Assembly: GCF_004114975.1 (NCBI RefSeq)
Contig: NZ_CP030051.1
Coordinates: 2,852,001-2,916,000 of the forward strand
Direction of reading: 5' to 3'
DNA length: 64,000 nucleotides
DNA from: Bradyrhizobium guangdongense
Lineage (GTDB): Bacteria; Pseudomonadota; Alphaproteobacteria; Rhizobiales; Xanthobacteraceae
Positions 37,819 to 55,970 of this stretch are shown one piece after another; within the stretch, counting starts at the first letter, position 1; every line of letters begins with the position of its first letter. The notes beneath the pieces were generated by a model, which saw nothing but the letters and a program-made list of their open reading frames with translations, was not told the DNA's origin and ran no database searches. Made by a program: the position numbers and the translations under genes.

Positions 37819-38973
37819 TCAGAGTTCCGCCAGCAGGACGAACAGGCAGCGGCGCTCGCCCTTGTTGACCATGCCGCCGCGGTGCATGCCGTTGCCGTCG
37901 AACAGCACGCAATTGCCGTAGTTTGACGTCGCGGCGAAGTGGCCCTCGCGCAGCCGCGCCACCTCGGGCGAATTGTCGGGCAGGTCGCCGCCGAAGTCGG
38001 CCTTCTTGCGCAGGAACGCCGGCAGCGCCATGAACTTCTTGCGTGCGTCGGGCTGTCGGCCGGAGAAGCCGGAGAAGTCGTTGGTACGTCGGACCATGCC
38101 CTCGAACCAGCCGATCTTTGCGTTCTGGCTGCCGCGGATGTAGCAGAACGGACCGCCGTCCGGACCGATGTCATGGATGTAGATTGCGCATTTCAGCATG
38201 CCATAGGTAGCATCGATGTGCAGGTAGCTGCCCCAGGGATCGGCAAGTTGCGTATCCGGGAATACGCGCCTCCAGAATGCGAGGTCCTGGTCGTTGATCT
38301 GCGCGTTGACGTGCTTCACGCCGGCCGGCCGGCCGAGATAGGCGCTCGCCGCTTCCATGATGCCATAGCGCCTGAAGATGGACTCGACGGTGGCGAATGC
38401 CTGCGGATCGGCCGAGCGCGTGCACCAATAGACGTTGTCGTCGAACTTGCGCTTCTCCGGCGGAATGTTGGCGCGACGCTCGTCGAGCTTGGCGAAGCCC
38501 GGATTGGTCACGCTGCGGATCTGCTCGATCTCGTCGGGCGCAAGTGTCAGGCAGACGATGCCGTCGGATTTGATCCTGTTGAGCAGCGCCGGATTCGCGG
38601 GTTTTGCGGGACGACGTGAGCCGGTCAGAGTGCCGATCGCGCGACTCGCACGGATGCGCGCATACATCAAGATGTAGCGCAGTGCCGTCTTTGCGTTGAG
38701 CCCGCTGAAGCCGGCTTCTTTGGTCAGCAGCGGCATGTTGTCGTAATCGACGATGCGGCGGATTGTGACGAAGGCGAACGTGCGCAGGAATACGTTCAGC
38801 GCGTTAATGCGCTCACGGAATGTCGGCTTCGGCAGCATGCCGCCATAGGCCGGATGGGCCTCGTAATCGATCGCGGGAAGCGTCGTGCCGCGATAGGGCG
38901 GAATCGGAAGCTCACCAATTTCGACGGCGCGGGCCACCGGCGTCACGTCGGAAAGTGAATCGATCGTCGTCAT
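37819..38973 (-). CDS. PhyH-like Fe(II)/2-oxoglutarate dioxygenase (paralog A)
   Basis: A 384-residue protein from the ATG at 38973, with GGGAG eight bases upstream. The iron-binding triad fits H252-x-D254 in SYLHIDATYGMLK and H364 in GMHRGGMV, with Arg365 or a later Arg for 2-oxoglutarate. The fold and spacing (GGPFCYIRGSQNAK between) resemble phytanoyl-CoA dioxygenase-like enzymes. It is clearly related to the protein at 54885-55970 along its whole length. Hydroxylation of a sugar or lipid part is possible; no substrate is known. Confidence 0.75.
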   Translation of the reverse strand: MTTIDSLSDVTPVARAVEIGELPIPPYRGTTLPAIDYEAHPAYGGMLPKPTFRERINALNVFLRTFAFVTIRRIVDYDNMPLLTKEAGFSGLNAKTALRYILMYARIRASRAIGTLTGSRRPAKPANPALLNRIKSDGIVCLTLAPDEIEQIRSVTNPGFAKLDERRANIPPEKRKFDDNVYWCTRSADPQAFATVESIFRRYGIMEAASAYLGRPAGVKHVNAQINDQDLAFWRRVFPDTQLADPWGSYLHIDATYGMLKCAIYIHDIGPDGGPFCYIRGSQNAKIGWFEGMVRRTNDFSGFSGRQPDARKKFMALPAFLRKKADFGGDLPDNSPEVARLREGHFAATSNYGNCVLFDGNGMHRGGMVNKGERRCLFVLLAEL

Positions 38974-39063
38974 GTCGCGTTCTCCCGGAACGAGCGCGGT
39001 TCGTCTCAAGCTCGCCCCGATCTATACAGCGTGAGGCGCTGCACAGGCAATAATCGCCGGCAG

Positions 39064-40257
39064 TTATCCGGTCGTTCCGGGCGACTCCGGTGTTGCCGCT
39101 AAATCATGGAAATGCTTCGGAAAAGCGCGCTTGATGTCGATCGTTCGAAGGGTTCCAGCGATCCGCTCCGACGCCCCCCCGCGGCCGTAGGGCGGAACTA
39201 CGCCCGGATCAGGCTGGAACCGGCCCTCGAAGATGCGCGTCAGGCTGGCAAGAATGGCTGCCGAATCGGCGGGACAATCGATGATTGAGGCGGCGCGCAA
39301 TCGCCCCTTCTGGCGATCACCGATGTTTATCGTGGGCGCGCCGACCGCCGGCGCCTCCAGGATGCCGCTGGAGGAGTTGCCGACCACGGCGTCGGCGAGC
39401 CGCAATGCCGCCCAATAGCGCTCGCTGCCAAGCGAGGTGAAGAGATGGGCGCGATCGCCGCGCGTCGCGACAAACGCCCTGATCGCGTCGTCGATGGCGC
39501 GATAGCCCGGATCGGCATTCACGCCGGTGAAGATGAAGCTGCGGTCCTCGACCTCGGCGAGCGCGCCGAAGAGCGCTGCGATGTTGGCGGCGTCAGCCTC
39601 GGGCTGTGCCGTCGTCGGATGCAGGGTCACCAGCAGGAAGCGCTCAGGGCCGGCGATGCCGAGCTTTGCGAACAACTCGGCGCGGCTCAAGGGCGGCGCG
39701 GTATCCGCCAGGTCAAGGCCGGGCGCGCCCACGTTGAAGACGAGAAAGGGCTGCTCCCCCATCTGGATCACGCGCTGACGATAGGGCTCGGCCGCGACGA
39801 AGTGCAGGCAAGCCATCTTGGTGATGGCGTGGCGGATCGCGTCATCGAAGGCGCCCGCGGTGATCTCGCCGCCATGGATATGCGCGATCGGGATGTTCAA
39901 GAGCGTCGCTGCAACCGCTGCCGCTAGCACCTCGTAGCGATCGCCGAGCACGACGACGATGTCAGGCGCGAGCTTAGGCAGCACCTCGGCAAAGCCGGTG
40001 ACGCCGAGGCCGGTGCCGCGCGCGATCGTCTCGGCGCGATCGTCATCGAGTGCGAAGTTGATCTTTGCGGCGATCGGAAAGCCGTCGGCCTCGATCGCTC
40101 GCCAGGTCTCGCCGAAGCGCGGCACCAGATGCATGCCGCAGGCGATCACGCTCAGCGCAACGTCGTCGGCCGCCTTCAGCCGCGTCAGGATGCCGCGCAG
40201 CAGACCGTAGTCGGCGCGCGAACCCGTGACAACGGCGATGTGGCGGCGTGCGCTCAT
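39064..40257 (-). CDS. legG: LegG/NeuC-like UDP/GDP-sugar 2-epimerase (hydrolysing)
   Basis: A 397-residue GT-B fold enzyme. VVTGSRADYGLLRGIL, VLGDRYEVLAAAVAA, HIHGGEITAGAFDDAIRHAI and VGNSSSGILEAPAVGAPTIN are the NeuC/LegG signature. It hydrolyses the NDP bond and epimerises C2, giving 2,4-diacetamido-2,4,6-trideoxymannose for the synthase LegI. Its start overlaps the legF stop by four bases (ATGA), so the two are co-translated. Confidence 0.92.
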   Translation of the reverse strand: MSARRHIAVVTGSRADYGLLRGILTRLKAADDVALSVIACGMHLVPRFGETWRAIEADGFPIAAKINFALDDDRAETIARGTGLGVTGFAEVLPKLAPDIVVVLGDRYEVLAAAVAATLLNIPIAHIHGGEITAGAFDDAIRHAITKMACLHFVAAEPYRQRVIQMGEQPFLVFNVGAPGLDLADTAPPLSRAELFAKLGIAGPERFLLVTLHPTTAQPEADAANIAALFGALAEVEDRSFIFTGVNADPGYRAIDDAIRAFVATRGDRAHLFTSLGSERYWAALRLADAVVGNSSSGILEAPAVGAPTINIGDRQKGRLRAASIIDCPADSAAILASLTRIFEGRFQPDPGVVPPYGRGGASERIAGTLRTIDIKRAFPKHFHDLAATPESPGTTG

Positions 40258-41000
40258 GATTGTCGCCGCCAGGGCGAAGCGTCGAGCATGCCGTGCTCGA
40301 CGACGTAGGCCGCGTAGGCGAGATCGGCCGCGCTCTCGATTTCGATCGAATGCATGCGGTCCATCATGATGCCGTAGCTCGCGGACGGATCGGCGTAGAT
40401 CTTGCGATGTTTGCGCATCGCGTCCCAGCCGACAAGGTAGAGCGCGCCGTTCATGGTGACTTCGACGGCCTGATCCTGCCGTCGCTGCGCCGTCGTGGTC
40501 AGCATCTTCTCGACAATGCCTCCAATCGAGCCGTCAGGGCCGAGCGTCCCGACGAAGATTGAGGAGACCTCGGTCTCGCGCATGCCGACCACGAGGCTCG
40601 CCTTGCGCGCGGCAAAGAGTTCGATGGCCTCATCGAAATGCTTTGGCGTCGCGAAGGGCGAGGAGGGTTCCAGCAGCATGATGGCCTCGTAGCGCCGCTT
40701 CTCATGCGTCTCGATCCAGTCCATGGCGTGCAGCACCACGTCGTTGGAGGAGGCCGTGTCGGTCGCGAGTTCGGCCGGCCGCTCGAACAGCATTTCGGCA
40801 CCATACCGCGTCGCTTCGGCGCGGATCTCGGCGCTGTCGCTGGAGACGATCAGGCGCGAGCAGTAGCGGGACTGCTTTGCGGCGATCGCCTTGTAGCCGG
40901 TCAGGCTGAGGCCGCCGATTTCGCGAAGATTCTTGCCGGGAAGGCCCTTCGATCCGCCGCGGCCGACCAGCAGGAACAGTATTTCGGGCGAGTTTGTCAT
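40254..41000 (-). CDS. legF: LegF/NeuA-like CMP-nonulosonate synthetase
   Basis: A 248-residue cytidylyltransferase from the ATG at 41000; an in-frame ATG at 41030 adds ten residues. FLLVGRGGSKGLPGKNLREI is the CMP-sialic acid synthetase motif, followed by RLIVSSDSAEI and ERPAELATD. It activates the finished nonulosonate as CMP-sugar for transfer. It is divergent from legI across a 183-base gap that probably holds both promoters. Confidence 0.9.
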   Translation of the reverse strand: MTNSPEILFLLVGRGGSKGLPGKNLREIGGLSLTGYKAIAAKQSRYCSRLIVSSDSAEIRAEATRYGAEMLFERPAELATDTASSNDVVLHAMDWIETHEKRRYEAIMLLEPSSPFATPKHFDEAIELFAARKASLVVGMRETEVSSIFVGTLGPDGSIGGIVEKMLTTTAQRRQDQAVEVTMNGALYLVGWDAMRKHRKIYADPSASYGIMMDRMHSIEIESAADLAYAAYVVEHGMLDASPWRRQS

Positions 41001-41183
41001 GGGCAACAGGCAATCCTGCGTCAGGGTCATTGCGAACAGGCGCGATTCGTCACTCTGCGGACTTTTGCGAGGCCCGTGGGGAACGCCGCGAACCGCTGGC
41101 CTGCGTTGCTTTTACCAGCGTGCTCGACTAAGACAACCGCTTGATTGGCGGGCGATTTCGCTTCGCCCTGGCGACAAAATCCC

Positions 41184-42266
41184 ATGCATCGCAAAACCCT
41201 GATCATTGCTGAGGCTGGCGTCAACCACAATGGCGATCGCGCGCGCGCGCTGGCGCTTGTGGAGGCGGCCGCGCGGGCAGGGGCCGACGCCGTCAAGTTT
41301 CAGTCGTTCCGTGCCGACAAGCTCGCGACCGCCGGGGCGGCGAAGGCAAGCTACCAGCAAGCGACCACGGGAACGGCACAATCACAGCTCGAGATGCTGC
41401 GCGCGCTCGAGCTCAGCCCTGATGACGAGGAACAGATCGCAGCGGCCTGCGTGGCGTCCAAAATTACCTACATGTCGACGCCGTTCGATGCCGACAGCGC
41501 CACGCATCTGGTCCGCCGTGTCGGTGTCTCCACGCTGAAGGTCGGCTCGGGCGACCTGACCAATGCGCCGCTCTTGCTGCATCTGGCGCGGTTCGGCCTG
41601 CCGATCATCCTGTCGACCGGGATGGGGACACTCGCCGAAGTGGAGCTGGCGCTTGGCGTCATCGCTTTCGGTTATCTCCGCGAGGCGACGGCGTGGCCGA
41701 CGCCCGCCGATTTCGCGAATTTGTTGCTCGACCGCGCGACCTGGACGGAGCTGCGTGCAAAAGTCACGCTGCTGCATTGTACGACCGAATATCCGGCCGA
41801 TCCACAATCGATCAATCTGCGAGCGATGGCGACGCTGCGCGATGCGTTTGGCCTGCCAGTCGGCTTCTCCGACCACAGCCGTGGTATCCACATCGCCTCG
41901 GCCGCGGTGGCTCTCGGTGCCACCGTGGTCGAAAAGCATCTGACGCTCGATCGCAATCTGCCGGGGCCTGACCACCGCGCCTCGATCGAGCCGGATGAGA
42001 TGGCTGCGATGATCGCTGCGATCCGCGATGTCGAAGCCGCGCTGGGCGACGGTCGCAAGGTGCCGGCGCCCGAGGAGATTCCAAATCGCGTGGTGGCCCG
42101 CCGCAGTCTCGTCGTGCTTCAGCCGGTCCGCGCCGGGGAGCGCTTTACGGAAGACAATCTCGGCGTCAAGCGCCCGGGCGGCGGCATTCCGCCGATCGAA
42201 TATTGGAGCTATCTCGGCAAGGTCGCCCTGCGCGATTACGCGGCCAACGAGGCGCTGGAGCCATGA
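41184..42266 (+). CDS. legI: LegI/NeuB-like nonulosonate synthase
   Basis: A 360-residue enzyme starting MHRKTLIIAEAGVNHNGD. ADAVKFQSFRADKL, STPFDADS, LKVGSGDLTN and GFSDHSRGIHIASAAVALGA match NeuB; the C-terminal part from about residue 290 (RRSLVVLQPVRAGE) is the antifreeze-like SAF domain. It condenses the 6-deoxy-diacetamido mannose with phosphoenolpyruvate. It starts a plus-strand operon with the NeuD-like, ptmE-like and ptmA-like genes. Confidence 0.92.
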   Translation: MHRKTLIIAEAGVNHNGDRARALALVEAAARAGADAVKFQSFRADKLATAGAAKASYQQATTGTAQSQLEMLRALELSPDDEEQIAAACVASKITYMSTPFDADSATHLVRRVGVSTLKVGSGDLTNAPLLLHLARFGLPIILSTGMGTLAEVELALGVIAFGYLREATAWPTPADFANLLLDRATWTELRAKVTLLHCTTEYPADPQSINLRAMATLRDAFGLPVGFSDHSRGIHIASAAVALGATVVEKHLTLDRNLPGPDHRASIEPDEMAAMIAAIRDVEAALGDGRKVPAPEEIPNRVVARRSLVVLQPVRAGERFTEDNLGVKRPGGGIPPIEYWSYLGKVALRDYAANEALEP

Positions 42267-42889
42267 GCCTGATCGTGCTCTGTGCCGGCGGTCACGCCCG
42301 CGTCATCATCGAAGCCCTGCTGAGCCGTGGCATCCATCCCGCAGCAGCCGCCGATCGCGATGCCACCCGGCTTGGGGAGGTCATAGGCGGCGTCAAGATC
42401 ACCGGATCGGACGACGACGTCTTGAAGATGGCCGCTGATACGGTCGAGCTTGCCAATGGTCTCGGCAATCGTGCCTCGCGTACCGATTCGGGGTTGTCGG
42501 GCCGACGCCTCCTGTTCGATCGGTTTGCAGCGCGGGGTTACAAGTTTCCTGTGATCGCACATGCGTCCGCCGTCATCGCCTCCGATGCACAACTCGGCGA
42601 CGGCGCGCAGGTGATGGCCGGCGCCGTGATTCAGCCCGCGGCGCGCCTTGGGCGCAACACCCTGATCAATACGCGCGCGGTGGTCGAGCATGATTGCATG
42701 GTCGGCGATCACGCACATGTCGCTCCGGGGGCGGTGCTGTGCGGCGGCGTGTCCATCGGGGAGAGCGTCCATATCGGCGCCGGCGCGGTGGTGTTGGTCG
42801 GCGTCAAAGTGGGGGCCGGAGCCGTCGTTGCTGCGGGCGCGGTGGTTACAAGGGATGTCGCGGCCGGCGGATTCTCCGGCAACGAATAG
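42263..42889 (+). CDS. NeuD/PglD-like hexapeptide acetyltransferase
   Basis: A 208-residue protein whose ATG overlaps the legI stop (ATGA). The N-terminal LIVLCAGGHARVIIEALLSR is the NeuD/PglD sugar-binding motif; the rest is a left-handed beta helix with VVEHDCMVGDHAHVAPGAVL. In this operon it is the best candidate for N-acetylating the 4-amino sugar made by LegC, the step called LegH elsewhere, although LegH of Campylobacter is of a different protein type. That reassignment is inferred. Confidence 0.85.
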   Translation: MSLIVLCAGGHARVIIEALLSRGIHPAAAADRDATRLGEVIGGVKITGSDDDVLKMAADTVELANGLGNRASRTDSGLSGRRLLFDRFAARGYKFPVIAHASAVIASDAQLGDGAQVMAGAVIQPAARLGRNTLINTRAVVEHDCMVGDHAHVAPGAVLCGGVSIGESVHIGAGAVVLVGVKVGAGAVVAAGAVVTRDVAAGGFSGNE

Positions 42890-42901
42890 GATGAGTTTGT
42901 C

Positions 42902-43942
42902 ATGAAGGGTGCATTCGCCGTCAGTGAAGACACGCCGTTGATAGAGACGCTTCGGCGCATCGATCAGGGCAATCTGCAACTCGCCATCGTCGAGCGCGAT
43001 GGCAGGATCGTCGGCACCGTCACCGACGGCGACGTGCGGCGGGCGCTGCTCGGCGGTGTCGGCCTCGACGCCTCGGTCAGCCTCGTGATGAACCGCATGC
43101 CGATCACGGCACCGGTCGGTATCTCGAATCCGGCCGCGCTCAATCTGATGCGCAAGCATTCGATCCATCAGCTTCCGCTCGTCGATACCGAGGGGCGGGT
43201 GGTCGAGGTCAAGCTGATCGACGACCTCGCACTCGTGCAGCAATCCGATCACTGGGTCGTGCTGATGGCCGGCGGGCTCGGCTCGCGGCTGAAGCCGCTT
43301 ACAGACGACATTCCCAAGCCGTTGATCCGCGTCGGAGACAAGCCGATCCTGGAGACCGTGCTCGGCGGTTTCGTGAAGGCCGGCTTCGGCAAGTTCTTCA
43401 TCTCGGTCAATTACAAGGCCGACATGATACGCGACTATTTCGGCGATGGTTCTGCGTGGGGTGTGGAGATTGACTATCTCCAGGAGAGCGAGCGGCTCGG
43501 CACCGCCGGGGCCCTGTCGCTGCTGCCGGAGCGGCCGACGCAGCCCTTCTTCGTCATGAATGGCGATCTGCTGACGACGGTGAACTTCGAGCAGATGCTG
43601 AAATATCATCGCGAGCATAAGGCGTTCTCGACCGTCTGCGTGCGGGAGCATTCGGTGACCGTGCCATTCGGCGTGATCGATTTCGACGACCATCGCCTGC
43701 TTCGCATTCGCGAGAAGCCGACGCAGAAATTCTTCGTCAACGCGGGGGTCTATCTGCTCGATCCCGGGGTGCTCGATCATCTCGACACCAACGAGGCCAT
43801 CGATATGCCGACGCTGATCGAGCGCACCATCGCCAAAGACAAGCCGTCGGTTGTGTTCCCGCTGCGGGAGTACTGGATCGACGTCGGCCGCCTCGACGAT
43901 CTGCAGCGTGCCTCCGACGAGTTCCAGAGGATATTCGGATGA
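42902..43942 (+). CDS. ptmE: PtmE-like nucleotidyltransferase with CBS pair
   Basis: A 346-residue protein. Residues 1-115 are two CBS motifs (NLQLAIVERDGRIVGTVTDG and the SIHQLPLVDTEGRVVEV stretch). From about 118 comes a sugar nucleotidyltransferase domain, VLMAGGLGSRLKPLTDDIPK. This layout matches PtmE of Campylobacter, which makes GDP-glucosamine for the legionaminic acid pathway. Its neighbours are legI upstream and the SDR downstream, which supports a GDP-linked rather than UDP-linked route. Its stop overlaps the SDR start. Confidence 0.85.
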   Translation: MKGAFAVSEDTPLIETLRRIDQGNLQLAIVERDGRIVGTVTDGDVRRALLGGVGLDASVSLVMNRMPITAPVGISNPAALNLMRKHSIHQLPLVDTEGRVVEVKLIDDLALVQQSDHWVVLMAGGLGSRLKPLTDDIPKPLIRVGDKPILETVLGGFVKAGFGKFFISVNYKADMIRDYFGDGSAWGVEIDYLQESERLGTAGALSLLPERPTQPFFVMNGDLLTTVNFEQMLKYHREHKAFSTVCVREHSVTVPFGVIDFDDHRLLRIREKPTQKFFVNAGVYLLDPGVLDHLDTNEAIDMPTLIERTIAKDKPSVVFPLREYWIDVGRLDDLQRASDEFQRIFG

Positions 43943-44751
43943 GCACTGAACGCTCGCTCCGCGAAATGATGTCGCTCGACGGCCGCGTCGCCATTGTCAC
44001 CGGCGGCGCCGGCCATATTGGCCGCGCCATTGCTGCAGGTCTTGCCGAGCTCGGTGCCGCCATCGCCCTGGTCGATATCGCCGCGTCCGCGGGTACCGAG
44101 GCAGCGGCGAAGCTGGCCGCCGATCACTCCGTCGAGGCGGCGATGTTCGACTGCGATTTCGAGCAGGGGGAGGCGGTAAAGGATCTGCCACGGCGGGTGC
44201 GCGAGGCCTTCGGTGGTATCGACATCATCGTCAATTGCGCAGCCTTCGTGGGCACCAGCGGACTGGAAGGCTGGGCGGTGCCGTTCGAGCAGCAGTCGGA
44301 CGCGACCTGGCGGCGCGCGATCGAGGTCAACCTCACCGCGCCGTTCGTGCTGATCCAGGCCGCAGCCGAGGACCTCGCGAGGTCGGGCCATGGTAGTGTG
44401 ATCAATATTTCCTCGATCTACGGCCTCGCCGGGCCCGACTGGCGGCTCTACGAGGGAACCGCCCTCGGGAACCCAGCCGCCTATGCCGCCAGTAAGGGCG
44501 GGCTAATCCAGATGACGCGCTGGCTGGCCACCACGATGGCGCCAAAGGTTCGGGTCAATGCGGTCGCGCCGGGGGGCGTCTTCAGGGCTACGCCGGAGCG
44601 GTTTTTGAGCCGCTATGTGGCCCGGACGCCGCTTGCGCGTATGGCGCGTGAGGACGATATGAAGGGCGCAGTGGCGTATCTGGCGAGCGACCTTGCAGCC
44701 TATGTGACGGGCCAGTGCATTGCGGTCGACGGGGGATGGACGGCGTGGTAA
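43939..44751 (+). CDS. ptmA: PtmA-like short-chain dehydrogenase
   Basis: A 270-residue classical SDR: VAIVTGGAGHIGRAIAAGLA at the N-terminus, NISSIYGLAGPDW, and YAASKGGLIQMTRWLA with the Tyr/Lys pair, then VNAVAPGGVF. Gene order after a PtmE-like gene and the segment GPDWRLYEGT suggest PtmA, a dehydrogenase of the Campylobacter legionaminic cluster. Its exact step there is not settled. The start overlaps the ptmE stop by four bases. Confidence 0.8.
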   Translation: MSTERSLREMMSLDGRVAIVTGGAGHIGRAIAAGLAELGAAIALVDIAASAGTEAAAKLAADHSVEAAMFDCDFEQGEAVKDLPRRVREAFGGIDIIVNCAAFVGTSGLEGWAVPFEQQSDATWRRAIEVNLTAPFVLIQAAAEDLARSGHGSVINISSIYGLAGPDWRLYEGTALGNPAAYAASKGGLIQMTRWLATTMAPKVRVNAVAPGGVFRATPERFLSRYVARTPLARMAREDDMKGAVAYLASDLAAYVTGQCIAVDGGWTAW

Positions 44752-44788
44752 GCCAACGGCAAATCATGCAATTGCAGGAATCTCAGAA

Positions 44789-45970
44789 ATGTTGAGCTGT
44801 AGCAAGTGCTTATTGCCCGAAACGGCGGAGGCCACCTCGTTCGACGAATCCGGTTCGTGTAGCGTCTGCGCCCAGATCGAGGTCCGCGACACCCAGATCA
44901 ATTGGGAGGAGCGCCACGCCCAGATGATGGAACTGGTCGCACAATACCGCGACAAGGGGCTGTATGACTGCATCGTGCCCTATTCGGGAGGCAAGGATAG
45001 CGTCTTTCAGCTGTGGTACGTCGTCAAGAAGCTCGGCCTGAAGCCGTTGGTGGTGCGCTTCGACCACTGGTTCTACCGTCCGCTGGTCGAGGAGAACAAC
45101 ACCAGCGTGTTCAAGCAGCTCGGCGTCGACGTCTTGAACTTCACGCCGAACTGGCACGTGGTGCGCGAACTCATGCTGGAATCGCTGAAGCGCCGCGGCG
45201 ACTTCTGCTGGCACTGCCACACCGGCATCTACGCCCACACCATGCAGATCGCGATCCGCTACGAGACGCCGTTGTTGTTTTGGGGCGAGAGTCTTGCGGA
45301 ATACCAGTCGTTCTACTCCTACGACGAGATGGAAGAGGTCGACGAGAAGCGCTTCAACCGGGCCATGAATCTCGGCATCACCGCCGACGACATGTACGAG
45401 TTCCTGGGCGGCCGCGTTGCCAAGCGCGACCTCTATCCGTTCGTCTATCCGCCGCGCAAGGAGCTGATGCGGATCAAGTGCCGTTCGATCTGCCTTGGCA
45501 GCTACATCAAGTGGGACACCAAGAAGCACGTCGAGATCATCAAGCGCGAGCTCGGCTGGAAGGGCCAGGAGGTCGAGGGCATTCCGCCTGAGTACGATTA
45601 CGAAAAGATCGAGTGCTTCTTCCAAGGGGTGCGCGACTATCTGAAGTACATCAAGCGCGGCATGGGCCGGACCAACCATCTCGCCAACATCGACATCCGC
45701 AACAAACGCATGACACGCGAGCAGGGCGAGGCACTGGTGCGCGAGTTCGACGGCAAGCGACCGCCGAGCCTCGATCTGTTCCTCGACTATCTTCAGCTCA
45801 CCGAGGAGCAGTTTCTGGGCATTGCGATCAAGCACGAGGTCAGTCCGTGGCAGTTCTCGCCGAACACGGTCGAGCCGGGTCGCCGTATGCCGGACATGGA
45901 CAAGTGGAACAACACGCAAGTGCCCTGGCCGAATCATCCCGGCGTCGAAATCGGCGGCGGCAAGGGATAG
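44789..45970 (+). CDS. PseA/WbpG-like N-acetyl sugar amidotransferase
   Basis: A 393-residue protein from the ATG at 44789. The zinc-type cysteines CSKC and CSVC lie at the N-terminus, and the PP-loop ATP-pyrophosphatase motif PYSGGKDSVFQLWYVVKKLG follows. FCWHCHTGIYAHTMQIAIRY and IKCRSICLGSYIKWDTKKH match PseA/WbpG. The enzyme uses ammonia from HisH/HisF partners to turn an acetamido group into an acetamidino group. Both partners are encoded immediately downstream. The acceptor sugar could be the legionaminic-type sugar or the WlbABC product. Confidence 0.92.
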   Translation: MLSCSKCLLPETAEATSFDESGSCSVCAQIEVRDTQINWEERHAQMMELVAQYRDKGLYDCIVPYSGGKDSVFQLWYVVKKLGLKPLVVRFDHWFYRPLVEENNTSVFKQLGVDVLNFTPNWHVVRELMLESLKRRGDFCWHCHTGIYAHTMQIAIRYETPLLFWGESLAEYQSFYSYDEMEEVDEKRFNRAMNLGITADDMYEFLGGRVAKRDLYPFVYPPRKELMRIKCRSICLGSYIKWDTKKHVEIIKRELGWKGQEVEGIPPEYDYEKIECFFQGVRDYLKYIKRGMGRTNHLANIDIRNKRMTREQGEALVREFDGKRPPSLDLFLDYLQLTEEQFLGIAIKHEVSPWQFSPNTVEPGRRMPDMDKWNNTQVPWPNHPGVEIGGGKG

Positions 45971-46021
45971 GCTGACGAGGGTCCATAGGCGGCGCGAATG
46001 TCGCCCCCGGGGGAGCAGGCG

Positions 46022-46670: not shown

Positions 46671-47447
46671 ATGCTGAAGAAGCGCCTTATCCCCAAATTC
46701 CTGCTGCGCGATGGCAGGCTCGTCAAATATACCCGCTTCTTCGAGAACGAGCGCGTCGCCGGCAATCCGGTGACGACCGCGAAGGTTTATAACGACTACG
46801 GTGTCGACGAGCTGATCGTCCTCGACATCGTGCCGAGCGCGGCCTCGCGCGGCCGCGTGGTCGACATCATCGAGCGGATGTCGGAAGAGATTTTCATGCC
46901 GTTCACGGTCGGCGGCGGGGTCAAGACGCTGGACGACGTCAACATGCTGCTCCGCGCCGGTGCCGATAAGGTGTCGGTGAATTCGGAGGCCGTGCGCCGC
47001 CCGGAGTTTCTGCGCGAGGCGGCGCGCACCTTCGGCGACCAGTGCATGACGGTGTCGATCGACTACAAGAGGATCAGCCCCAACCATGCCAGCGTATTCA
47101 TCGACGGAGGCCGCGAGCATGTCGCGCTCGACCCGATCGAATGGGCGCAGCGGTGCGAGGACCTGCACTGCGGGGAGGTGCTGCTCGGCTCGATCGATCG
47201 CGACGGCACTATGAGCGGCTACGATCTCGAACTGATCCACAGGGCGGCAAGCGTCTTGAGCGTACCGCTGATCGTCTCCGGTGGCTGCGGTTCGCTCCAG
47301 CATGCGATCGACGCACTCGAAGCCGGAGCGTCGGCGGTGGCGATCTCCTCGATGTTCCTGTTTACCGACCACAGCCCGATCAAGCTTCGTAGCCATCTGT
47401 TCTCGCGTGGTCTCGACGTGCGCGCCAGCTTCTCGAGCAGGAATTAA
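46671..47447 (+). CDS. HisF-like channel subunit of sugar amidotransferase
   Basis: A 258-residue TIM-barrel protein opening LKKRLIPKFLLRDGRLVKYT. FTVGGGVKTLDDVNMLLRAG, ADKVSVNSEAV and GEVLLGSIDRDGTMSGYDLE keep the HisF phosphate and barrel features. True HisF opens with a KRIIPCLDV motif; here it reads KRLIPKFLL, so the catalytic Asp of that loop is absent, in line with a role in ammonia tunnelling only. It follows hisH-like by ten bases. Confidence 0.9.
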   Translation: MLKKRLIPKFLLRDGRLVKYTRFFENERVAGNPVTTAKVYNDYGVDELIVLDIVPSAASRGRVVDIIERMSEEIFMPFTVGGGVKTLDDVNMLLRAGADKVSVNSEAVRRPEFLREAARTFGDQCMTVSIDYKRISPNHASVFIDGGREHVALDPIEWAQRCEDLHCGEVLLGSIDRDGTMSGYDLELIHRAASVLSVPLIVSGGCGSLQHAIDALEAGASAVAISSMFLFTDHSPIKLRSHLFSRGLDVRASFSSRN

Positions 47448-47451
47448 TACC

Positions 47452-48117
47452 GTGCAGCTTTCGCTCGCCCGCAACGATCTCGCCGTCTATGTGCGCAGGC
47501 AATTCGAGAACCTGTTTCCCGATGGCGCCAATCTCGGCGATCTCCCGAAACTCGTCGACCTTGCGCTCGGCCGGGTCGATCATTGCTTCTCGCGCGTAAG
47601 GCTGAAAGGCTTTTTTGCAAACGGCGAAGCGCGGTTCTCGCACTGGCATTCCGACCAATATGCGATCTTCCTTTACTACCTCGCCAATTCGGCGTTTCGC
47701 GAGCGGCCCGGCCATCCCATCGCCGACAAGGCCTATGCGCTCAACAAGGCGCTGCACGCGCTGGACGCGTTCTACGAGGTCGAGCTGCCGGACGTGTTCG
47801 CGGTCCAACATCCTGTCGGGACCGTGCTTGGGCGCGCCGTCTATTCGGATTATTTCATTTGCTACCACAATTGCACGGTGGGCGCGAACCTCGACAATGA
47901 CTATCCGTCGTTCGGGCGTGGCATCGTGATGTATGGCGGCAGCCGCGTGATCGGCAAGACTGCAGTAGGCGACAACTCTTTCATGTCGACGGGAGCGATC
48001 CTGATCGACGGCGGCACGCTCGCCGCCGACAGCATCTTGCATGGCGTCTATCCGAAGGCGGGGCGCTCGCCGACGTCGCGGAACGTGGTGCGCGATATTT
48101 TTGGGATGACGACCTGA
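47452..48117 (+). CDS. Hexapeptide-repeat O-acyltransferase (serine acetyltransferase-like)
   Basis: A 221-residue protein from GTG 47452, four bases after the HisF-like stop, with AGGA upstream. The first half is helical; the second has VGTVLGRAVYSDYFICYHNC, YPSFGRGIVMYGGSRVIGKT and VGDNSFMSTGAILIDG, a left-handed helix with the His-Asn catalytic region of CysE-like acetyltransferases. In this operon it probably acetylates the amidinated sugar or an intermediate. The stop abuts the convergent aminotransferase stop inside TGATCA. Confidence 0.78.
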   Translation: MQLSLARNDLAVYVRRQFENLFPDGANLGDLPKLVDLALGRVDHCFSRVRLKGFFANGEARFSHWHSDQYAIFLYYLANSAFRERPGHPIADKAYALNKALHALDAFYEVELPDVFAVQHPVGTVLGRAVYSDYFICYHNCTVGANLDNDYPSFGRGIVMYGGSRVIGKTAVGDNSFMSTGAILIDGGTLAADSILHGVYPKAGRSPTSRNVVRDIFGMTT

Positions 48118-49431
48118 TCAGGTCAACCGCTTGAACCCGGAGTGAGCCACGGGCCCGCGCAGCAACTGCCTGACGGCCTTCTGATCGACGGCGGTGCGGA
48201 GCTCCCGGAACACCTCGGCCGTCGCATCCAGGTAACGATCGACATGGGCGTCGGTATGCGACCACATCGCGTAGAACGAGCCCGTCGCGAGGATGCCGCG
48301 GTCCAGCATCATCTGCGTGAACAGCGTGCGCACCTCCTGCGCGTCCGGCAAGTCGAAGGCGAAATGGCCGAGCGGCGAGATGCCGGAAACGTGCAGGGGC
48401 AGGCCCGCGGCCTGTGACGCCTCGGTCCAGCCCTTCTGGATGCGCATGCCGATCCGCATCAGGTGCCGCGCGACGTTCTGCTCGCGATGCTTGCGCAAGG
48501 TGGCAAGTGCCGCGACCGGGCCGACGCGCTCAGTCCAGGCCGTCGAACTGACGAAGGTTTCCTGCGCCGCGTCCATCACGGAGGCACGGCCGACGATCGC
48601 GGCCATCGGAAAACCGTTGGCGATAGCCTTGGCGAACACCGCCATGTCGGGATCGACGCCATAGGCCAGATGAGCACCGCCGGAATTGATGCGGAAGCCC
48701 GACGTCACCTCGTCGAAGATCAACGCGGCGCCGCAGCGGTCGGCGAGCGCGCGGATACCCTTGATGAAGGCCGGTTCGGGCTCACTGGAGCGCACCGGCT
48801 CCATCACGATGGCGGCGAGCCGTTCGCCATGGGCGGCGACGATGGCCTCGATCTCATCGAGCTTATTGAAGTGGAATGGATGCATCAGGCCGGCGAGTCC
48901 ACGCGGCACGCCCTTGGTATCGAGGCCGGGCAGCAGATGACCGTCGAGTGCGGTGGTCTCGCCGAGATTGGCGCTGAGGTACCAGTCGTGCCAGCCGTGA
49001 TAACCGCAGAACGCCACCATGTCGCGGCCGGTCGCGGCGCGCGCGATGCGAACCGCAATCGCCATAGCCTCGCCACCGGCGCGACCGAAACGCACCATGT
49101 CCGCCCAAGGATGCAGCTCGACCAGGAGCTCTGCCAGCTCGATATCCTCAGCGCAGTTCAAGGTCGACATCGACCCCATGTCGATCGCACTCTTTACTGC
49201 GGCATCGACGTCGGGGTCGGCAAAGCCCAGGATGGTGGCGCCTATGCCGCAATAGCTCATGTCAAGGTAAGTCTTGCCGTCGAGATCGACGACTTCGGCG
49301 CCCTTGGCCGATTTGAAGTAAGTCGGCCACTGTTCCGGCAGGAACATTTCCGGCCGCTTTGAAAGCAGCTGCGTTCCACCGGGCATGACCTTGCGCGCGC
49401 GTCGGTAAAGCGTTTGGCCGGTGCTCGACAT
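48118..49431 (-). CDS. Class III aminotransferase, glutamate-1-semialdehyde aminomutase type
   Basis: A 437-residue PLP enzyme from the ATG at 49431, with AGGAG seven bases upstream. YRRARKVMPGGTQLLSKRPE is a HemL-like start; ALIFDEVTSGFRI has the PLP Asp, and DMAVFAKAIANGFPMAAIVG has the Lys. It differs from housekeeping HemL and belongs to the surface-polysaccharide branch often found in such loci, where the product is unknown. It is convergent with the amidotransferase operon. Confidence 0.88.
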   Translation of the reverse strand: MSSTGQTLYRRARKVMPGGTQLLSKRPEMFLPEQWPTYFKSAKGAEVVDLDGKTYLDMSYCGIGATILGFADPDVDAAVKSAIDMGSMSTLNCAEDIELAELLVELHPWADMVRFGRAGGEAMAIAVRIARAATGRDMVAFCGYHGWHDWYLSANLGETTALDGHLLPGLDTKGVPRGLAGLMHPFHFNKLDEIEAIVAAHGERLAAIVMEPVRSSEPEPAFIKGIRALADRCGAALIFDEVTSGFRINSGGAHLAYGVDPDMAVFAKAIANGFPMAAIVGRASVMDAAQETFVSSTAWTERVGPVAALATLRKHREQNVARHLMRIGMRIQKGWTEASQAAGLPLHVSGISPLGHFAFDLPDAQEVRTLFTQMMLDRGILATGSFYAMWSHTDAHVDRYLDATAEVFRELRTAVDQKAVRQLLRGPVAHSGFKRLT

Positions 49432-49804
49432 TGGGTTCTCCTGGGCGGAAAGCCTTCGGTGGATACCGCAAGCCCCCGACCCAGGCAAGGCACCGGGAGC
49501 AGGTTCTGCATGCCCGAATGGGCGCCCGATACCGCAAGATAGGTCGACTGGTTATGGATGCAGGAATAGGGAGGCGTTGTGGACCCAGTTGCCGCTTGCA
49601 GTCTCGGATGTCGTTAGTCTCGCGCGCTCCCCGCCGTCACGTTCGCGCTCCCCGTACGTGGTGGGGTGGCAGGGGTCCGGTGCCCCGACGATTTGAGCCG
49701 CGTCACATCCAGTATGCATGCGCCGGCGATTGTGAAGCATTTCATACGCCATCCGATCTTTGGTGGCTTATGCAGATGCGAGCACATCGTTCGGTTGTAT
49801 ATTT
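49432..49804. other. Long intergenic region, class III aminotransferase to beta-helix gene
   Basis: This 373-base stretch separates divergent genes, so both promoters should lie in it. It is GC-rich near the middle (around 49630-49700, several CCCCG and GGGG runs) and AT-richer close to 49790. I see no open gene, RNA gene or clear operator in it. Confidence 0.4.
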
Positions 49805-50773
49805 ATGGAGAGCTTCGTGAAAGTATCTCTAGCTGTCGTCGCGCTTGTCCTGTCATTTCTTTTTTCAACCATCCCGTCATACGCGCAGGCATCTCGGACC
49901 TGGGTTTCGGGCGTCGGTGATGACGCAAATCCCTGCAGTCGCACTGCGCCGTGCAAAACCTTTGCAGGCGCGATCTCCAAGACGGCTGCGGGAGGGGAGA
50001 TCAGCGTTCTCGATCCAGGTGGATTCGGCGCCGTGACCATCACAAAGGCCATCAGCATCACCAATGACGGCGTTGGCGAAGCCGGAGTGCTGGTATCAGG
50101 CACGAATGGCATCGTCGTTGCTGCCGGAGCTAGCGATGTTGTTAACGTCCGGGGCGTTGTTATTGACGGTTTCGGCACGGGATTATCCGGCATCCGGATA
50201 ACCTCTGCAGGCTCCGTAAACGTTCAGAACTGTGTGATCAAGAACTTCAGCGGGGGCGGGACTGGAACGGGAATTAGCTTTGCCCCGAATGCGACGTCTC
50301 AGCTGTTCGTATCGGACTCGATCGTGTCCAATAATAGCGGAGGGATCCAGGTCGCCACGGCGTCCGCCGGTACGCATGGCATCTTCGCCGTGCTCAATCG
50401 GGTTCAGGTGGAGAATAACGCGACATTCGGGATCAAGGTGGACGGTACGGGCGGTACCGGAGCAATCAGTGCGACTGCGCGAGATAGCGTGTCGGCCGGC
50501 AATCTTACCAACGGCATATGGGCGACCGCACCATCTGGCGCATCTGCGATCCGCCTACTCGTTGATCGAAGTGCAGCCGTCAACAACGCGGGTGTCGGCA
50601 TTTTATCGGACGGTCCGTCTACGCAGGTCATTCTGAACAATTCGGCGGTGACGGGTAACATCACCGGCTTGAGTTTCACGAATGGCGGTACGATGCCGTC
50701 ACTCAAGAACAGTGCCGTTGCAGGCAATCGAGTGACCGACGGAACCTCGTCCGCAGCTGTCGCGCCGCAGTAG
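49805..50773 (+). CDS. Secreted right-handed beta-helix protein
   Basis: A 322-residue protein with a signal peptide (MESFVKVSLAVVALVLSFLF, cleavage near SYAQA). The mature part begins RTWVSGVGDDANPCSRTAPC, then runs as short repeated strands rich in Asn, Gly, Ser and Val, with many AxNN turn motifs (SNNSGGIQVA, VENNATFGIK, AVNNAGVGIL), typical of parallel beta helices. Two Cys near the N-terminus may bond. Some such proteins are polysaccharide lyases or adhesins; no catalytic site is visible. It is more Ser/Thr/Asn-rich than its neighbours. Confidence 0.8.
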   Translation: MESFVKVSLAVVALVLSFLFSTIPSYAQASRTWVSGVGDDANPCSRTAPCKTFAGAISKTAAGGEISVLDPGGFGAVTITKAISITNDGVGEAGVLVSGTNGIVVAAGASDVVNVRGVVIDGFGTGLSGIRITSAGSVNVQNCVIKNFSGGGTGTGISFAPNATSQLFVSDSIVSNNSGGIQVATASAGTHGIFAVLNRVQVENNATFGIKVDGTGGTGAISATARDSVSAGNLTNGIWATAPSGASAIRLLVDRSAAVNNAGVGILSDGPSTQVILNNSAVTGNITGLSFTNGGTMPSLKNSAVAGNRVTDGTSSAAVAPQ

Positions 50774-50833
50774 AACGTTTCTACAGCCGGCGCCTCGCAT
50801 CGGAACGGGGGGCCGGCAGCCCGCCGCCTATCG

Positions 50834-52045: not shown

Positions 52046-52064
52046 GTGCAAACGCTGTCCTCGG

Positions 52065-53033
52065 TCAGGCGTGCGGCTGAGGGCCGTTGGCCTGACCTTC
52101 CGCCAAATAGGCTCCATAAGCGCGGGCGATACCGTCCTTCAACGATGTCGTCGCCCGCCAGCCGAGCTTGTCGAGGCGGCCGATGTCGAGCAGCTTGCGC
52201 GGCGTGCCGTCGGGGCGCGAGGGGTCGAAGGAGATCTCGCCGCGATAGCCGACGATCTCGGCGACCACGCGCGCGAACTCCGCAATGGCGATGTCCTCGC
52301 CGGTGCCGATGTTGATCAGCTCGCTGCTGGAGTAGGTCTTCATCAGGTGGACGCAGGCATCGGCCATGTCGTCGACATAGAGGAACTCGCGCCGCGGCGT
52401 GCCGGTGCCCCAGACCGCGACGGTCCTGGCACCCGAAAGCTTCGCCTCATGAAAGCGCCGGATCAGCGCCGCGACCACATGGCTCAATTCAGGGTGATAA
52501 TTGTCGCCGGGACCGTAGAGATTGGTCGGCATCACGCTGATGAAGTCGCTGCCATATTGGCTGCGATAGGCCTCCGCCATCTTGATGCCGGCGATCTTGG
52601 CGATGGCATAAGGCTCGTTGGTCGGCTCCAGCGGACCTGTGAGCACGGCATCCTCGCGCAGCGGCTGCGGCGCCAGCTTCGGATAGATGCAGGACGAGCC
52701 GAGGAACATCAGCTTCTCGGCCCGGTTCAGATGCGCGGCGTGGATCACGTTGGCTGCGATCGCGATGTTGTCGTAGATGAACTCGGCGCGCAGCGTGTTG
52801 TTGGCGACGATGCCGCCGACCTTGGCGGCGGCGAGGAAGATCACCTGCGGCCGCATCTTCGCGAACCAGTCGAACACGGCCGCCTGGTTGCAGAGATCGA
52901 CCTCGTGCCGCTCGACGGTGACGAGATTTACGTTCTCCCGCGCCAGACGACGCACAATGGCGCTGCCGACCATGCCGCGATGGCCGGCGACGTAGACGCT
53001 CTTGCCCTTCAGCTCAAACGGTACGCTTGCCAT
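52065..53033 (-). CDS. fcl: GDP-L-fucose synthase
   Basis: A 322-residue SDR from the ATG at 53033. [58 protein letters not shown] and [20 protein letters not shown] are the Fcl signature, with the Tyr/Lys of YAIAK. It epimerises and reduces GDP-4-keto-6-deoxymannose to GDP-L-fucose. It overlaps the gmd stop by 20 bases. Confidence 0.95.
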
Positions 53034-54099
53034 TCGCAATGTCCCGTTTGGCCTCGGCAAGGTCGCCCGCCATCATCTCTTCGACGAGCTGCGCAAAGCT
53101 CCGCTTCGGTTTCCAGCCGAGCACCTTTTGCGCCTTGCTGGCGTCGCCGACGAGCAGATCGACCTCGGTCGGGCGGAAATAGGTCGGATCAATCCTCACC
53201 ACGATCTTGCCGCTCTTCGCATCGACGCCGGTCTCGTCCACGCCCTTGCCGCGCCATTCGATGCGGCGGCCGACCTGGGCAAAGGACAGTTCGACCAGCT
53301 CGCGGACCGAGCGCGTTTCGCCGGTGGCGAGCACGAAATCGTCGGGCTTGTCGGCCTGCAGGATCATGTGCATGCCCTCGACATAGTCCTTGGCATGGCC
53401 CCAGTCGCGCTTGGCCTCGAGATTGCCGAGATAGAGCGTCTGCTCCAGCCCAAGCTCGATCCGGGCCACACCGCGGGTGATCTTGCGGGTGACGAAGGTC
53501 TCGCCGCGGATCGGGCTCTCATGGTTGAACAGGATGCCGTTCGAGGCAAACATGCCGTAGGCTTCGCGGTAGTTCACCGTGATCCAGTAGCCATAGAGCT
53601 TGGCGACGCCATAAGGCGAGCGCGGATAGAACGGCGTGGTCTCCTTCTGCGGGATCTCCTGCACCAGGCCGTAGAGCTCGGAGGTCGAGGCCTGGTAGAA
53701 CCGCGTCTCCTTCTCCATGCCGAGGATGCGGATCGCCTCCAAAAGGCGCAGCACGCCGATGGCATCGGCGTTGGCGGTGTATTCCGGACTCTCGAAGCTG
53801 ACGGCGACGTGGCTCTGCGCGGCGAGATTGTAGATCTCGGTCGGGCGGATCTGCTGCACCAGGCGGATCAGGTTGGTCGAATCCGTCATGTCGCCGTAAT
53901 GCATCAGGAACGGCACGTTGCCGACATGCGGGTCCTGGTAGAGGTGATCGACGCGCGCGGTGTTGAACGAGGACGAGCGCCGCTTGATGCCGTGCACGAC
54001 ATAGCCGAGCGACAGCAAATGCTCGGCGAGATAAGCCCCGTCCTGCCCGGTCACACCGGTGATGAGAGCGACGCGCTGTTTGGAGTCTTGAGCAGTCAT
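53014..54099 (-). CDS. gmd: GDP-mannose 4,6-dehydratase
   Basis: A 361-residue enzyme: [73 protein letters not shown], then [15 protein letters not shown] with the Tyr/Lys pair, and [16 protein letters not shown]. All are diagnostic of Gmd. It makes GDP-4-keto-6-deoxymannose for Fcl (GDP-fucose) and possibly for the aminotransferase at 17-18 kb (perosamine type). Confidence 0.96.
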
Positions 54100-54291: not shown

Positions 54292-54807
54292 TCAGGCGAG
54301 CTTGAGCGCCTCGCGCACGAAGGTCGCGAGATTGCCTTCCCGAAATAGCAGGCCACGGATGCCGGCAGCGCGCGCCGCCTTCAGGTCGCGCTCCTGATCG
54401 CCGATCAGGAAGCTCCTGTCGGTCGCGACGGGAAAGCGCTTCATGAGGTCAGTGATCATGCCGGGCCCCGGCTTTCGCCGGTCGCTGTCGCGTCGATAGC
54501 TCTCGACGACGGCCTCGGGGTGATCGGGGCAATATTCGAACGCGTCGATATGGGCGCCGGCGGCGGCGAGCTCGTCGGCCATCCAGCGATGGAGGGCATG
54601 TACGTCGCTCTCCCCGTAGAATCCGCGGGCCACGCCGGACTGGTTGGTGACTACGAAGGCGAAATAGCCGGCCTCATTTACGAGCCTGACCGCCTCGCGC
54701 GCGCCGTCGATCCATTTGAACTTGCTGACCTCGAAGAGGTAGCCGGCGTCGTGATTGAGAACGCCGTCGCGGTCGAAGAAGACGGCCGGCCGGGTCGATG
54801 TCGTCAT
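54292..54807 (-). CDS. GmhB-like HAD phosphatase with altered zinc loop
   Basis: A 171-residue HAD-IIIA phosphatase from the ATG at 54807. AVFFDRDGVLNHDAGYL has the DxD nucleophile, FVVTNQSGVARGFYGE the second motif, and RKPGPGMITDLMKRFP the third. GmhB (heptose bisphosphate 7-phosphatase) holds zinc with a CxH...CxC loop; here the first pair is seen as CPDH, but the second pair reads SDR instead of CDC, so the zinc site looks lost. It is probably a heptose-phosphate or similar sugar phosphatase. Confidence 0.8.
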   Translation of the reverse strand: MTTSTRPAVFFDRDGVLNHDAGYLFEVSKFKWIDGAREAVRLVNEAGYFAFVVTNQSGVARGFYGESDVHALHRWMADELAAAGAHIDAFEYCPDHPEAVVESYRRDSDRRKPGPGMITDLMKRFPVATDRSFLIGDQERDLKAARAAGIRGLLFREGNLATFVREALKLA

Positions 54808-54884
54808 GGGGTGCCGCAACAAATGTTTGCGGCCATTGTTCACCGTCCCGCCGGCGGCTTGTCAAGATATCGGCGGCGTCGCAC

Positions 54885-55970
54885 CTACGTCGGTTCCGTC
54901 AGCATCATGGTGACAACCAGTCTGCGGCCGCTCCGTACCATGCCGCCGCGGTGGATTCCGAATGGGTCGAACAGGACCGCGTCGCCCTGGTCGCTGGTCA
55001 CGCGCCATTCGTTGTCGAGTATGGCGTCGGCATATTCGCTGCCGGCGGGCAGATCGACCCCGAACGCGGCTTTGCGCTGCAGGAATTTTGGAAGCGCGTT
55101 GAAGAGCCGGCGGTTCTGCGGCTTGGTCGACGACAGGCTGGCATAGTCGTTGGCGCGGCGGATGAGCCCGTCCCAGAAGTTGCGGCTCGCGCGATGGGTT
55201 CCGCGGACATAGGTGAACGGACCATTCTCGGGGCCGACCTCGCTCACATAGATGATGAACTTGAGGAGGTTGTAGGTCGCATCGACGTGACAATAGTCGC
55301 AGGGCGAGTCCACGACACCAACGTCTCGAAAATGATTGGCCCAGAAGGCGTCGCTCGGGTCGTTGATCTGAGGTACCACATGGGCAATCGCCACCGGACG
55401 ATCGAGATAGGCGCTCGCCGCGTCGATGACGCCAAGCTCGGACCCCAGTTGATTGAAATAAGCGTAGAGCTCGGGAAAGGCGTCCTTGTCCAGCCACAGC
55501 CGCGTCTCGTCGAAATGGCGTTGGTCTGGCGTCTTTTGTGCAAGTCTCGCTTCAAGCGTCCGGTAGTGCGGGGCGAGCAGGTCTCTGATACGGCCGAGCT
55601 GTTCTGGCGAGAGGTGAAAACCCGCTATGCCGTCGCGTTTCAGCGTCTTCAGCACGTTGGCACCGGCCGTCGTCCTCGGCTCCGTGGCGCGTCGCGTCAG
55701 CCGCCGCAGCTTCTGTGTCGCCACCAGCCGCAGATACGTCGGGGAGCGCCGGACCAGCTCGGCCACCTTGTGCGATTTGTCGCTGGGGCGCGGCAGATGC
55801 TCGTAGTCGGCCATCAGACGGGCCGTGATCATGGCAAAGCCCGATGCGAATTTTGCCAGTGCCGCGGCGCGTTCGCCGAGGCTTGGCTTCGGGAAAGCCG
55901 TGCCATACGCAGGGTGATTCGGATAATCGATGACTGGCAAATGATTGTACGAATATGGGTGCGATGTCAT
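54885..55970 (-). CDS. PhyH-like Fe(II)/2-oxoglutarate dioxygenase (paralog B)
   Basis: A 361-residue protein from the ATG at 55970. The triad fits H228-x-D230 in DYCHVDATYNLLK and H340 in GIHRGGMVRSGRR, with an Arg for 2-oxoglutarate nearby. It shares the layout of the 37819-38973 protein: the N-terminal PxIDYxxHPAYG start, AASAYLxRP, QINDxxxAFW, GPFTYVRGTHRAS and the HRGGMV end. Function unknown; a hydroxylase acting on glycan or lipid is a guess. Confidence 0.75.
   Translation of the reverse strand: MTSHPYSYNHLPVIDYPNHPAYGTAFPKPSLGERAAALAKFASGFAMITARLMADYEHLPRPSDKSHKVAELVRRSPTYLRLVATQKLRRLTRRATEPRTTAGANVLKTLKRDGIAGFHLSPEQLGRIRDLLAPHYRTLEARLAQKTPDQRHFDETRLWLDKDAFPELYAYFNQLGSELGVIDAASAYLDRPVAIAHVVPQINDPSDAFWANHFRDVGVVDSPCDYCHVDATYNLLKFIIYVSEVGPENGPFTYVRGTHRASRNFWDGLIRRANDYASLSSTKPQNRRLFNALPKFLQRKAAFGVDLPAGSEYADAILDNEWRVTSDQGDAVLFDPFGIHRGGMVRSGRRLVVTMMLTEPT

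Follow-up and report, generated by a model that had tools for sequence, protein, structure and literature searches.

We analysed a window of 64,000 nucleotides from the genome of Bradyrhizobium guangdongense (contig NZ_CP030051.1, positions 2,852,001 to 2,916,000; coordinates below are those of the window) with regard to two genes encoding predicted Fe(II)/2-oxoglutarate (2OG) oxygenases, PhyH_A and PhyH_B. The source genome comprises 8.44 Mb on two contigs. Both genes lie within a single polysaccharide locus, and PhyH_A was found to travel with the genes of a legionaminic-acid-type, that is sialic-acid-like, nonulosonate, which makes this sugar a candidate substrate.

37819..38973, minus strand: PhyH_A, 384 aa, predicted PhyH-superfamily Fe/2OG oxygenase; HID at 252-254, H364, R374
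54885..55970, minus strand: PhyH_B, 361 aa, second member, of separate descent; HVD at 228-230, H340, R350

Family membership and metal site of PhyH_A and PhyH_B

A preliminary description of this DNA had located both genes correctly, although without their strand, which is minus for both. The residues that it had numbered (H252/D254/H364 in PhyH_A, H228/D230/H340 in PhyH_B) are right with the conserved ATG starts, and the layout that it regarded as shared is borne out by an alignment of 367 columns with 38% identity (BLASTP E 3e-89). Its placement of two Fe/2OG-type oxygenases, judged by sequence, in one polysaccharide locus also stands. When PhyH_A was used as the query against the genome, the only matches at E<=0.01 were PhyH_A and PhyH_B; two further PF05721 matches are located elsewhere. 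Both genes are under purifying selection, with ratios of nonsynonymous to synonymous substitution relative to the window copy of 0.06-0.19 for 19 PhyH_A orthologs and 0.09-0.26 for four PhyH_B copies.

With regard to family membership, the Pfam PhyH model (PF05721, cut-off 22 bits) gave 21.5 bits for PhyH_A and 24.4 bits for PhyH_B in the protein scan, and 22.3 and 23.8 bits in a six-frame search. Among 32 chosen diverse family members, 19 matched this model at E<=0.01. Three profiles, A1 to A3, were hand-picked from about 190 homologs (32, 26 and 18 members), and A1 and A3 were compared with one built from 28 PhyH-domain segments of other genomes, representing 28 of 30 PF05721 loci. Profile A1 matched at 97.5% probability (E 6e-12 for one comparison) over residues 139-393, and the PhyH_B-led profile A3 at 97.0% (E 8.8e-11). 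Column-shuffled controls, 20 per profile, reached at most 0.6% (A1) and 1.8% (A3), with a best E of 0.028. In the hhalign alignments, the columns of the distal histidine and of the arginine coincide with those of the PhyH profile. Judged from these profiles, PhyH_A and PhyH_B are distant relatives of the PhyH Fe/2OG oxygenases, a superfamily that includes phytanoyl-CoA 2-hydroxylase and bacterial relatives, and they are predicted to adopt the double-stranded beta-helix fold. They share with this superfamily the HxD...H triad, the arginine 10 residues past the distal histidine, which we take to be the 2OG-binding residue, and the profile match. Unlike it, they lack a full-length Pfam match, lie in a sugar-locus context and have about 130 additional N-terminal residues, which bear a distinct signature, LPxIDYxxHPAYG, common to the family.

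The metal and 2OG set is widely conserved. Across 191 family proteins of at least 300 aa (PhyH_A and PhyH_B included, 11 shorter ones excluded), the first histidine is present in 182, the aspartate in 186, the distal histidine in 186 and the arginine in 189. Fifteen proteins deviate somewhere: 11 among the Rhodopseudomonas-like rows P0148-P0166, and P0109, P0111, P0129 and P0167. Over much of their length, P0109 and P0111 (PhyH_A-like) and P0129 (PhyH_B-like) are 84-93% identical to the window proteins, and they represent either broken genes or sequence errors.

The top sequence match to a solved structure was 4xc9, which, together with its companion entries, we take to be the sugar-antibiotic oxygenase HygX. 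This match reached E 3.4e-5 with the family profile and E 0.2-0.4 with single sequences. Rank and sugar substrates liken the window proteins to oxygenases of the HygX/AviO1 type, but the match to PhyH_A and PhyH_B is short and local (31 profile positions). Genes of the HygX/AviO1 type sit in antibiotic gene clusters.

The nonulosonate locus and the distribution of PhyH_A

The following genes were assigned in the locus around PhyH_A and PhyH_B, cut-offs being those of NCBIfam or of the model named.

26422-27420, plus strand: LegB 4,6-dehydratase, over the NCBIfam cut-off
27417-28646, plus strand: LegC aminotransferase, over the NCBIfam cut-off
28646..30034, plus strand: candidate nonulosonate glycosyltransferase (w28646); no Pfam match, KpsC match not significant (E 0.41)
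30089-31417, plus strand: Wzx-like flippase, match below cut-off
31496-33109, plus strand: Wzy-like polymerase, NCBIfam match below cut-off, no Pfam match
34221..35072, plus strand: FkbM methyltransferase (PF05050), 2.7 kb from PhyH_A
35113..36255, minus strand: SGNH/GDSL-like partner of MBOAT, GDSL match below cut-off
36176..37726, minus strand: MBOAT O-acyltransferase (PF03062), directly downstream of PhyH_A
39064..40257, minus strand: NeuC/LegG-type hydrolysing 2-epimerase, over the NeuC_NnaA cut-off
40254..41030, minus strand: CMP-nonulosonate cytidylyltransferase (LegF/NeuA/PseF-like), below the PseF cut-off
41145..42266, plus strand: nonulosonate synthase (NeuB/LegI), over the NeuB_NnaB cut-off
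42203..42889, plus strand: hexapeptide acyltransferase with PglD_N, presumably NeuD/LegH-like
42902..43942, plus strand: sugar-1-phosphate nucleotidyltransferase, presumably PtmE-like
43939..44751, plus strand: short-chain dehydrogenase, presumably PtmA-like
44720..45970, plus strand: WbuX N-acetyl sugar amidotransferase, 404 bits against a cut-off of 203
45998-46660, plus strand: HisH-like glutamine amidotransferase, after WbuX
46671-47447, plus strand: HisF-like partner, after the HisH-like gene
47281..48117, plus strand: serine-acetyltransferase-like (CysE/EpsC) protein, below cut-offs; start uncertain because the listed open reading frame overlaps HisF
48118..49488, minus strand: class III aminotransferase (glutamate-1-semialdehyde-aminomutase-like), conserved module member
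50834-52117, minus strand: glycosyltransferase, in the variable part adjoining PhyH_B
52065-53060, minus strand: GDP-fucose synthase, in the same variable part, over the NCBIfam cut-off
53014-54099, minus strand: Gmd, in the same variable part, over the NCBIfam cut-off
54292-54843, minus strand: HAD phosphatase, in the same variable part

The locus further encodes a Gfo/Idh oxidoreductase, DegT aminotransferases and a hexapeptide acyltransferase. As LegB, LegC, NeuC, NeuB, WbuX, Gmd and GDP-fucose synthase exceed their curated cut-offs and HisH- and HisF-like proteins are present, the locus is expected to produce a legionaminic-type nonulosonate and GDP-fucose; the cytidylyltransferase of the set matched below the PseF cut-off. 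From this gene content, the nonulosonate probably carries an acetamidino group. LegB, LegC, NeuC, NeuB, WbuX and HisH/HisF are held in common with the acetamidino-modified legionaminic pathway of Campylobacter and Legionella (in part from PMC4481668), to which the window locus adds an Fe/2OG oxygenase and FkbM. The assignment of w28646 as a CMP-sugar transferase was dropped, as it rested on a reading of motifs and on the non-significant KpsC match.

A right-handed beta-helix protein (49760-50773) is also encoded inside the locus, and a relative with 46% identity lies near PhyH_B in locus L015. At the other end of the window, a carbamoyltransferase (8344-10323) and a second MBOAT and GDSL pair (10867-13362) suggest further decorations. 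Beside the locus, positions 4678-7128 encode an M10 peptidase with RTX-type calcium-binding repeats and tryptophan-rich C-terminal repeats.

Family matches were found in 20 of 265 Bradyrhizobium genomes and in 31 of 391 genomes of a family-level sample that overlaps the Bradyrhizobium set. The phylum and class samples each gave two (of 398 and 385 genomes, respectively), the source genome counted in each. Since these surveys scored at most 4-7 first-look candidates per genome, the absences are not absolute. We compared 23 A-type loci: 20 from Bradyrhizobium, two from the same family (G324 and G298) and that of B. tropiciagri (L041). The legionaminic-type module (LegB/C, NeuA/B/C/D, WbuX-HisH-HisF) surrounds PhyH_A in 22 of them. 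The exception is G046, in which PhyH_A lies on a 3.8-kb contig too short to tell, with only Wzy, a short-chain dehydrogenase/reductase and FkbM as neighbours; a second contig of this genome carries WbuX, HisH, HisF and PhyH_B. A locus of this kind also occurs in L047 (JAUEPE010000031.1), deposited as 'Frankia sp. RB7', whose PhyH_A is 92% identical to that of the window; the organism name looks wrong.

WbuX is present in 48 of the 265 Bradyrhizobium genomes, and all 20 genomes with PhyH_A fall within the 23 top WbuX scorers, a boundary which was set by rank (394.6 vs 393.9 bits) with no gap in the scores. The other 242 genomes gave no hit at E<=1e-15. Synteny, which was read in the PhyH_A genomes and in the three exceptions only, showed that the module is otherwise the same in these three window-type WbuX loci without intact PhyH_A. 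G120 retains a 43-aa PhyH relic and has no FkbM, G151 has FkbM fragments and no PhyH, and G097 has neither, with MBOAT/SGNH instead. Of the 23 PhyH_A loci, 21 have an FkbM of full or almost full length, at a distance of up to 200 bp in 17 and of 1-3 kb in four, the window included; an intact FkbM was found in none of the three loci without intact PhyH_A. These counts, which are small (23 and 3 loci) and uncorrected for kinship, fit FkbM acting on the product of PhyH_A.

Outside Bradyrhizobium, WbuX and NeuB homologs stand no more than 13 kb from PhyH in four of five far relatives, which are 26-35% identical to PhyH_A or PhyH_B: L055 (a Burkholderiales metagenome-assembled genome, 35%), L060 (G911, 33%), L061 (G1014, 26%) and L031 (G443, 30%). 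WbuX exceeds its cut-off in all four. In L055, L061 and L031, FkbM comes right after PhyH on the same strand, with gaps of 69, 42 and 12 bp. At the genome level, WbuX was found in 7/7 tested genomes with non-Bradyrhizobium relatives vs 29/249 of the phylum sample, the source genome counted. The full metal set is present in all eight sampled non-A copies in or beside sugar genes, and in the fifth far relative, Legionella feeleii (L056). In L060, a MaoC-like protein (8097-9488) stands between a candidate glycosyltransferase and PhyH, which could hint at a 3-hydroxyacyl substituent.

Occurrence and ancestry of PhyH_B

PhyH_B is an optional extra: it was found in five of the 265 Bradyrhizobium genomes, all of them among the 20 with PhyH_A. 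In the window and in three further Bradyrhizobium loci it adjoins Gmd/Fcl and a glycosyltransferase in the same locus; in B. ivorense it is on a separate contig, where its neighbours are a DegT aminotransferase and an epimerase. In 15 further flanking stretches from the same side of the locus no PhyH_B was seen, and a PaaK-like ligase was present in nine. G076 has the HAD and PaaK neighbours with no PhyH_B between them. The PaaK-like ligase and an AGE epimerase were rejected as partners of PhyH_B, as they belong to the conserved locus border and occur without it.

The two genes, which the preliminary description had called two diverged copies, do not form a duplicated pair. In the tree, each of A and B forms a clade of its own with full support, and a recent tandem duplication was rejected, since placing A and B together gave p 0.0006 in the approximately unbiased test (0.039 with three extra rows). 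Descent from separate old clades argues against local duplication. The root split of this tree is weak, and nine of 47 rows were excluded (seven long or badly placed, two near-duplicates of A or B).

The preliminary description had named homologs lying mostly outside glycan loci as the outcome that would speak against it. Polysaccharide genes adjoin PhyH_A in all 23 A-type loci, so that this outcome did not arise for PhyH_A. PhyH_B relatives in Rhodopseudomonas lie away from the window's sugar genes. Around PhyH_B-like genes in nine distinct Rhodopseudomonas-type loci, the neighbours of which were partly scanned, these sugar genes were not found, with the exception of an MBOAT match (41%) about 7 kb off in L073 and of weak ABC-transporter matches. 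Six such loci were compared with one another: each has a relative of a HAMP protein and one of an AppA-like protein (a label based on a Pfam match below its cut-off), and five have a RuBisCO-like protein. The idea that all family members are glycan-locus enzymes is thus not borne out for Rhodopseudomonas-type genomes. Seven of the nine copies (L030, L035, L037, L038, L039, L064 and L073) have lost a metal ligand, by H to K in five and by D to A in two, one of the latter also having the distal H changed to Y; L036 and L065 are intact. Given these losses, the seven copies resemble pseudoenzymes and look like proteins kept for another role.

Proposed function and alternative explanations

In several bacterial groups PhyH_A is found together with sialic-acid-like sugar genes. 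This suggests that PhyH_A introduces a hydroxyl group and that a nearby enzyme then usually methylates it. We consider it somewhat better than an even chance that PhyH_A is an Fe/2OG hydroxylase tailoring the legionaminic-type nonulosonate before export, with FkbM usually methylating the new hydroxyl and PhyH_B performing the same chemistry at a second site. PhyH_A would be a cytosolic enzyme of a distinct PhyH subfamily. Its substrate would be the legionaminic-acid-type (5,7-diamino) sugar, either as the nucleotide sugar or within the lipid-linked repeat unit, and the same pathway would employ the WbuX-HisH-HisF amidotransferase. Hydroxylation would precede export of the repeat unit by Wzx, O-methylation by the nearby FkbM would usually follow, and in the two loci in which MBOAT and SGNH genes adjoin PhyH_A (G165 and B. 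tropiciagri) the hydroxyl may be O-acylated by their products rather than methylated. The site of PhyH_B would be optional. On chemical grounds, candidate target positions are C3 and C9, both deoxy carbons, or an N-acyl or acetimidoyl methyl.

Several observations weigh against this proposal. The Pfam PhyH match is close to the cut-off and confined to the C-terminal part of both proteins, the HxD columns are displaced by a gap in the hhalign alignment, and C-terminal metal/2OG residues are altered in P0109, P0111 and P0129. FkbM is absent from two of the 23 A-type loci (G165 and B. tropiciagri), and MBOAT/SGNH stand between PhyH_A and FkbM in the window, co-occur with FkbM in the window, G076 and G055, and occur without PhyH in G097. 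The genes of PhyH_A and FkbM mostly lie side by side, so that a single deletion could take out the two together. The genome of L. feeleii (32% identity) contains WbuX, yet none was seen within 10 kb of PhyH, and no FkbM match was seen near PhyH in L060 or L056. Finally, the GDP-fucose genes indicate that the repeat unit holds other sugars as possible substrates. PhyH_A, and PhyH_B as well, might thus hydroxylate another residue, such as a 6-deoxyhexose or an aminosugar, an explanation we regard as rather unlikely. In its favour are the GDP-fucose enzymes, the Gfo/Idh oxidoreductase, the DegT aminotransferases and the hexapeptide acyltransferase encoded in the locus, and the position of PhyH_B next to Gmd/Fcl in four Bradyrhizobium loci; however, the far PhyH relatives have chiefly the nonulosonate/WbuX part in common with the window, and the same Gmd/Fcl/HAD segment can occur without PhyH_B, as in G076.

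The preliminary description had proposed two hydroxylation steps on a glycan or a lipid carrier. The glycan remains plausible, with PhyH_A the best supported case, and is better supported than the lipid carrier. That the substrate is a lipid or an acyl compound (carrier lipid, acyl-CoA or N-acyl donor), as for phytanoyl-CoA hydroxylase, appears improbable. PhyH is the nearest Pfam family, a MaoC-like protein adjoins PhyH in L060 and a PaaK-like ligase adjoins PhyH_B, but PaaK marks the conserved locus border in 9 of the 15 flanking stretches, none of which shows PhyH_B, and the best solved-structure match, short as it is, is to what we take to be a sugar-antibiotic oxygenase. That same match is what favours a non-hydroxylating Fe/2OG reaction on a sugar, such as epimerisation, desaturation, or ring or orthoester formation, since HygX is placed among the Fe/2OG oxygenases linked with orthoester formation in sugar antibiotics (PMC8234114). 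Its local character and the FkbM neighbour, which is better suited to a free hydroxyl, make this explanation very improbable.

Hydroxylation of the nonulosonate by PhyH_A, the reading we prefer, would have its closest functional analogue in KdoO, the Fe/2OG 3-hydroxylase of 3-deoxy-D-manno-octulosonic acid (Kdo) in lipopolysaccharide, which uses Fe, 2OG and oxygen to oxidise Kdo at its 3-deoxy position (PMC8533242). The proposed likeness is Fe/2OG hydroxylation of a 3-deoxy-ulosonic acid of a surface glycan. KdoO belongs to another Pfam family (PF11004), and membership of PhyH_A and PhyH_B in it was rejected, as Pfam scans returned only PhyH at E<=0.001. A search for PF11004 in this genome gave no matches, which is uninformative because the same search matched no control genome either. 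A phytanoyl-CoA dioxygenase gene has been described in Burkholderia seminalis, within its wcb capsule cluster (PMC6445077), likened to PhyH_A and PhyH_B by description only, so this gene type is not new in capsule loci. This gene and KdoO are published cases that bear on the view of the preliminary description that Fe/2OG oxygenases are rare in lipopolysaccharide or capsule loci. The PhyH-like bdp11 was found in a biofilm screen of Xanthomonas and is not among the seven altered-lipopolysaccharide mutants listed (PMC3130047). Among open-licence PubMed Central papers, we found none joining legionaminic acid with phytanoyl-CoA dioxygenase, and none joining nonulosonic acid, hydroxylase and 2-oxoglutarate.

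The tailoring enzyme family is real, conserved and under-described. More tentatively, PhyH_A may found a family of Fe/2OG nonulosonic-acid hydroxylases making hydroxylated, mostly O-methylated legionaminic acids, which would be new monosaccharides capped by a methyl or acyl group that can be exchanged. Such a family would be the bacterial equivalent, in kind, of the Kdo 3-hydroxylase and of the CMP-N-acetylneuraminic acid hydroxylase of animals. The loci of G120, G151 and G097, which lack the intact PhyH_A-FkbM pair, are natural material for a direct comparison of glycans, and Bradyrhizobium enters into symbioses with legumes, where surface glycans are a subject of study. If the proposal is true, a sialic-acid-like sugar is hydroxylated and O-methylated by way of an enzyme class not previously tied to nonulosonates in the open-licence literature, and predictions of nonulosonates from gene content would have to add an oxidation step.

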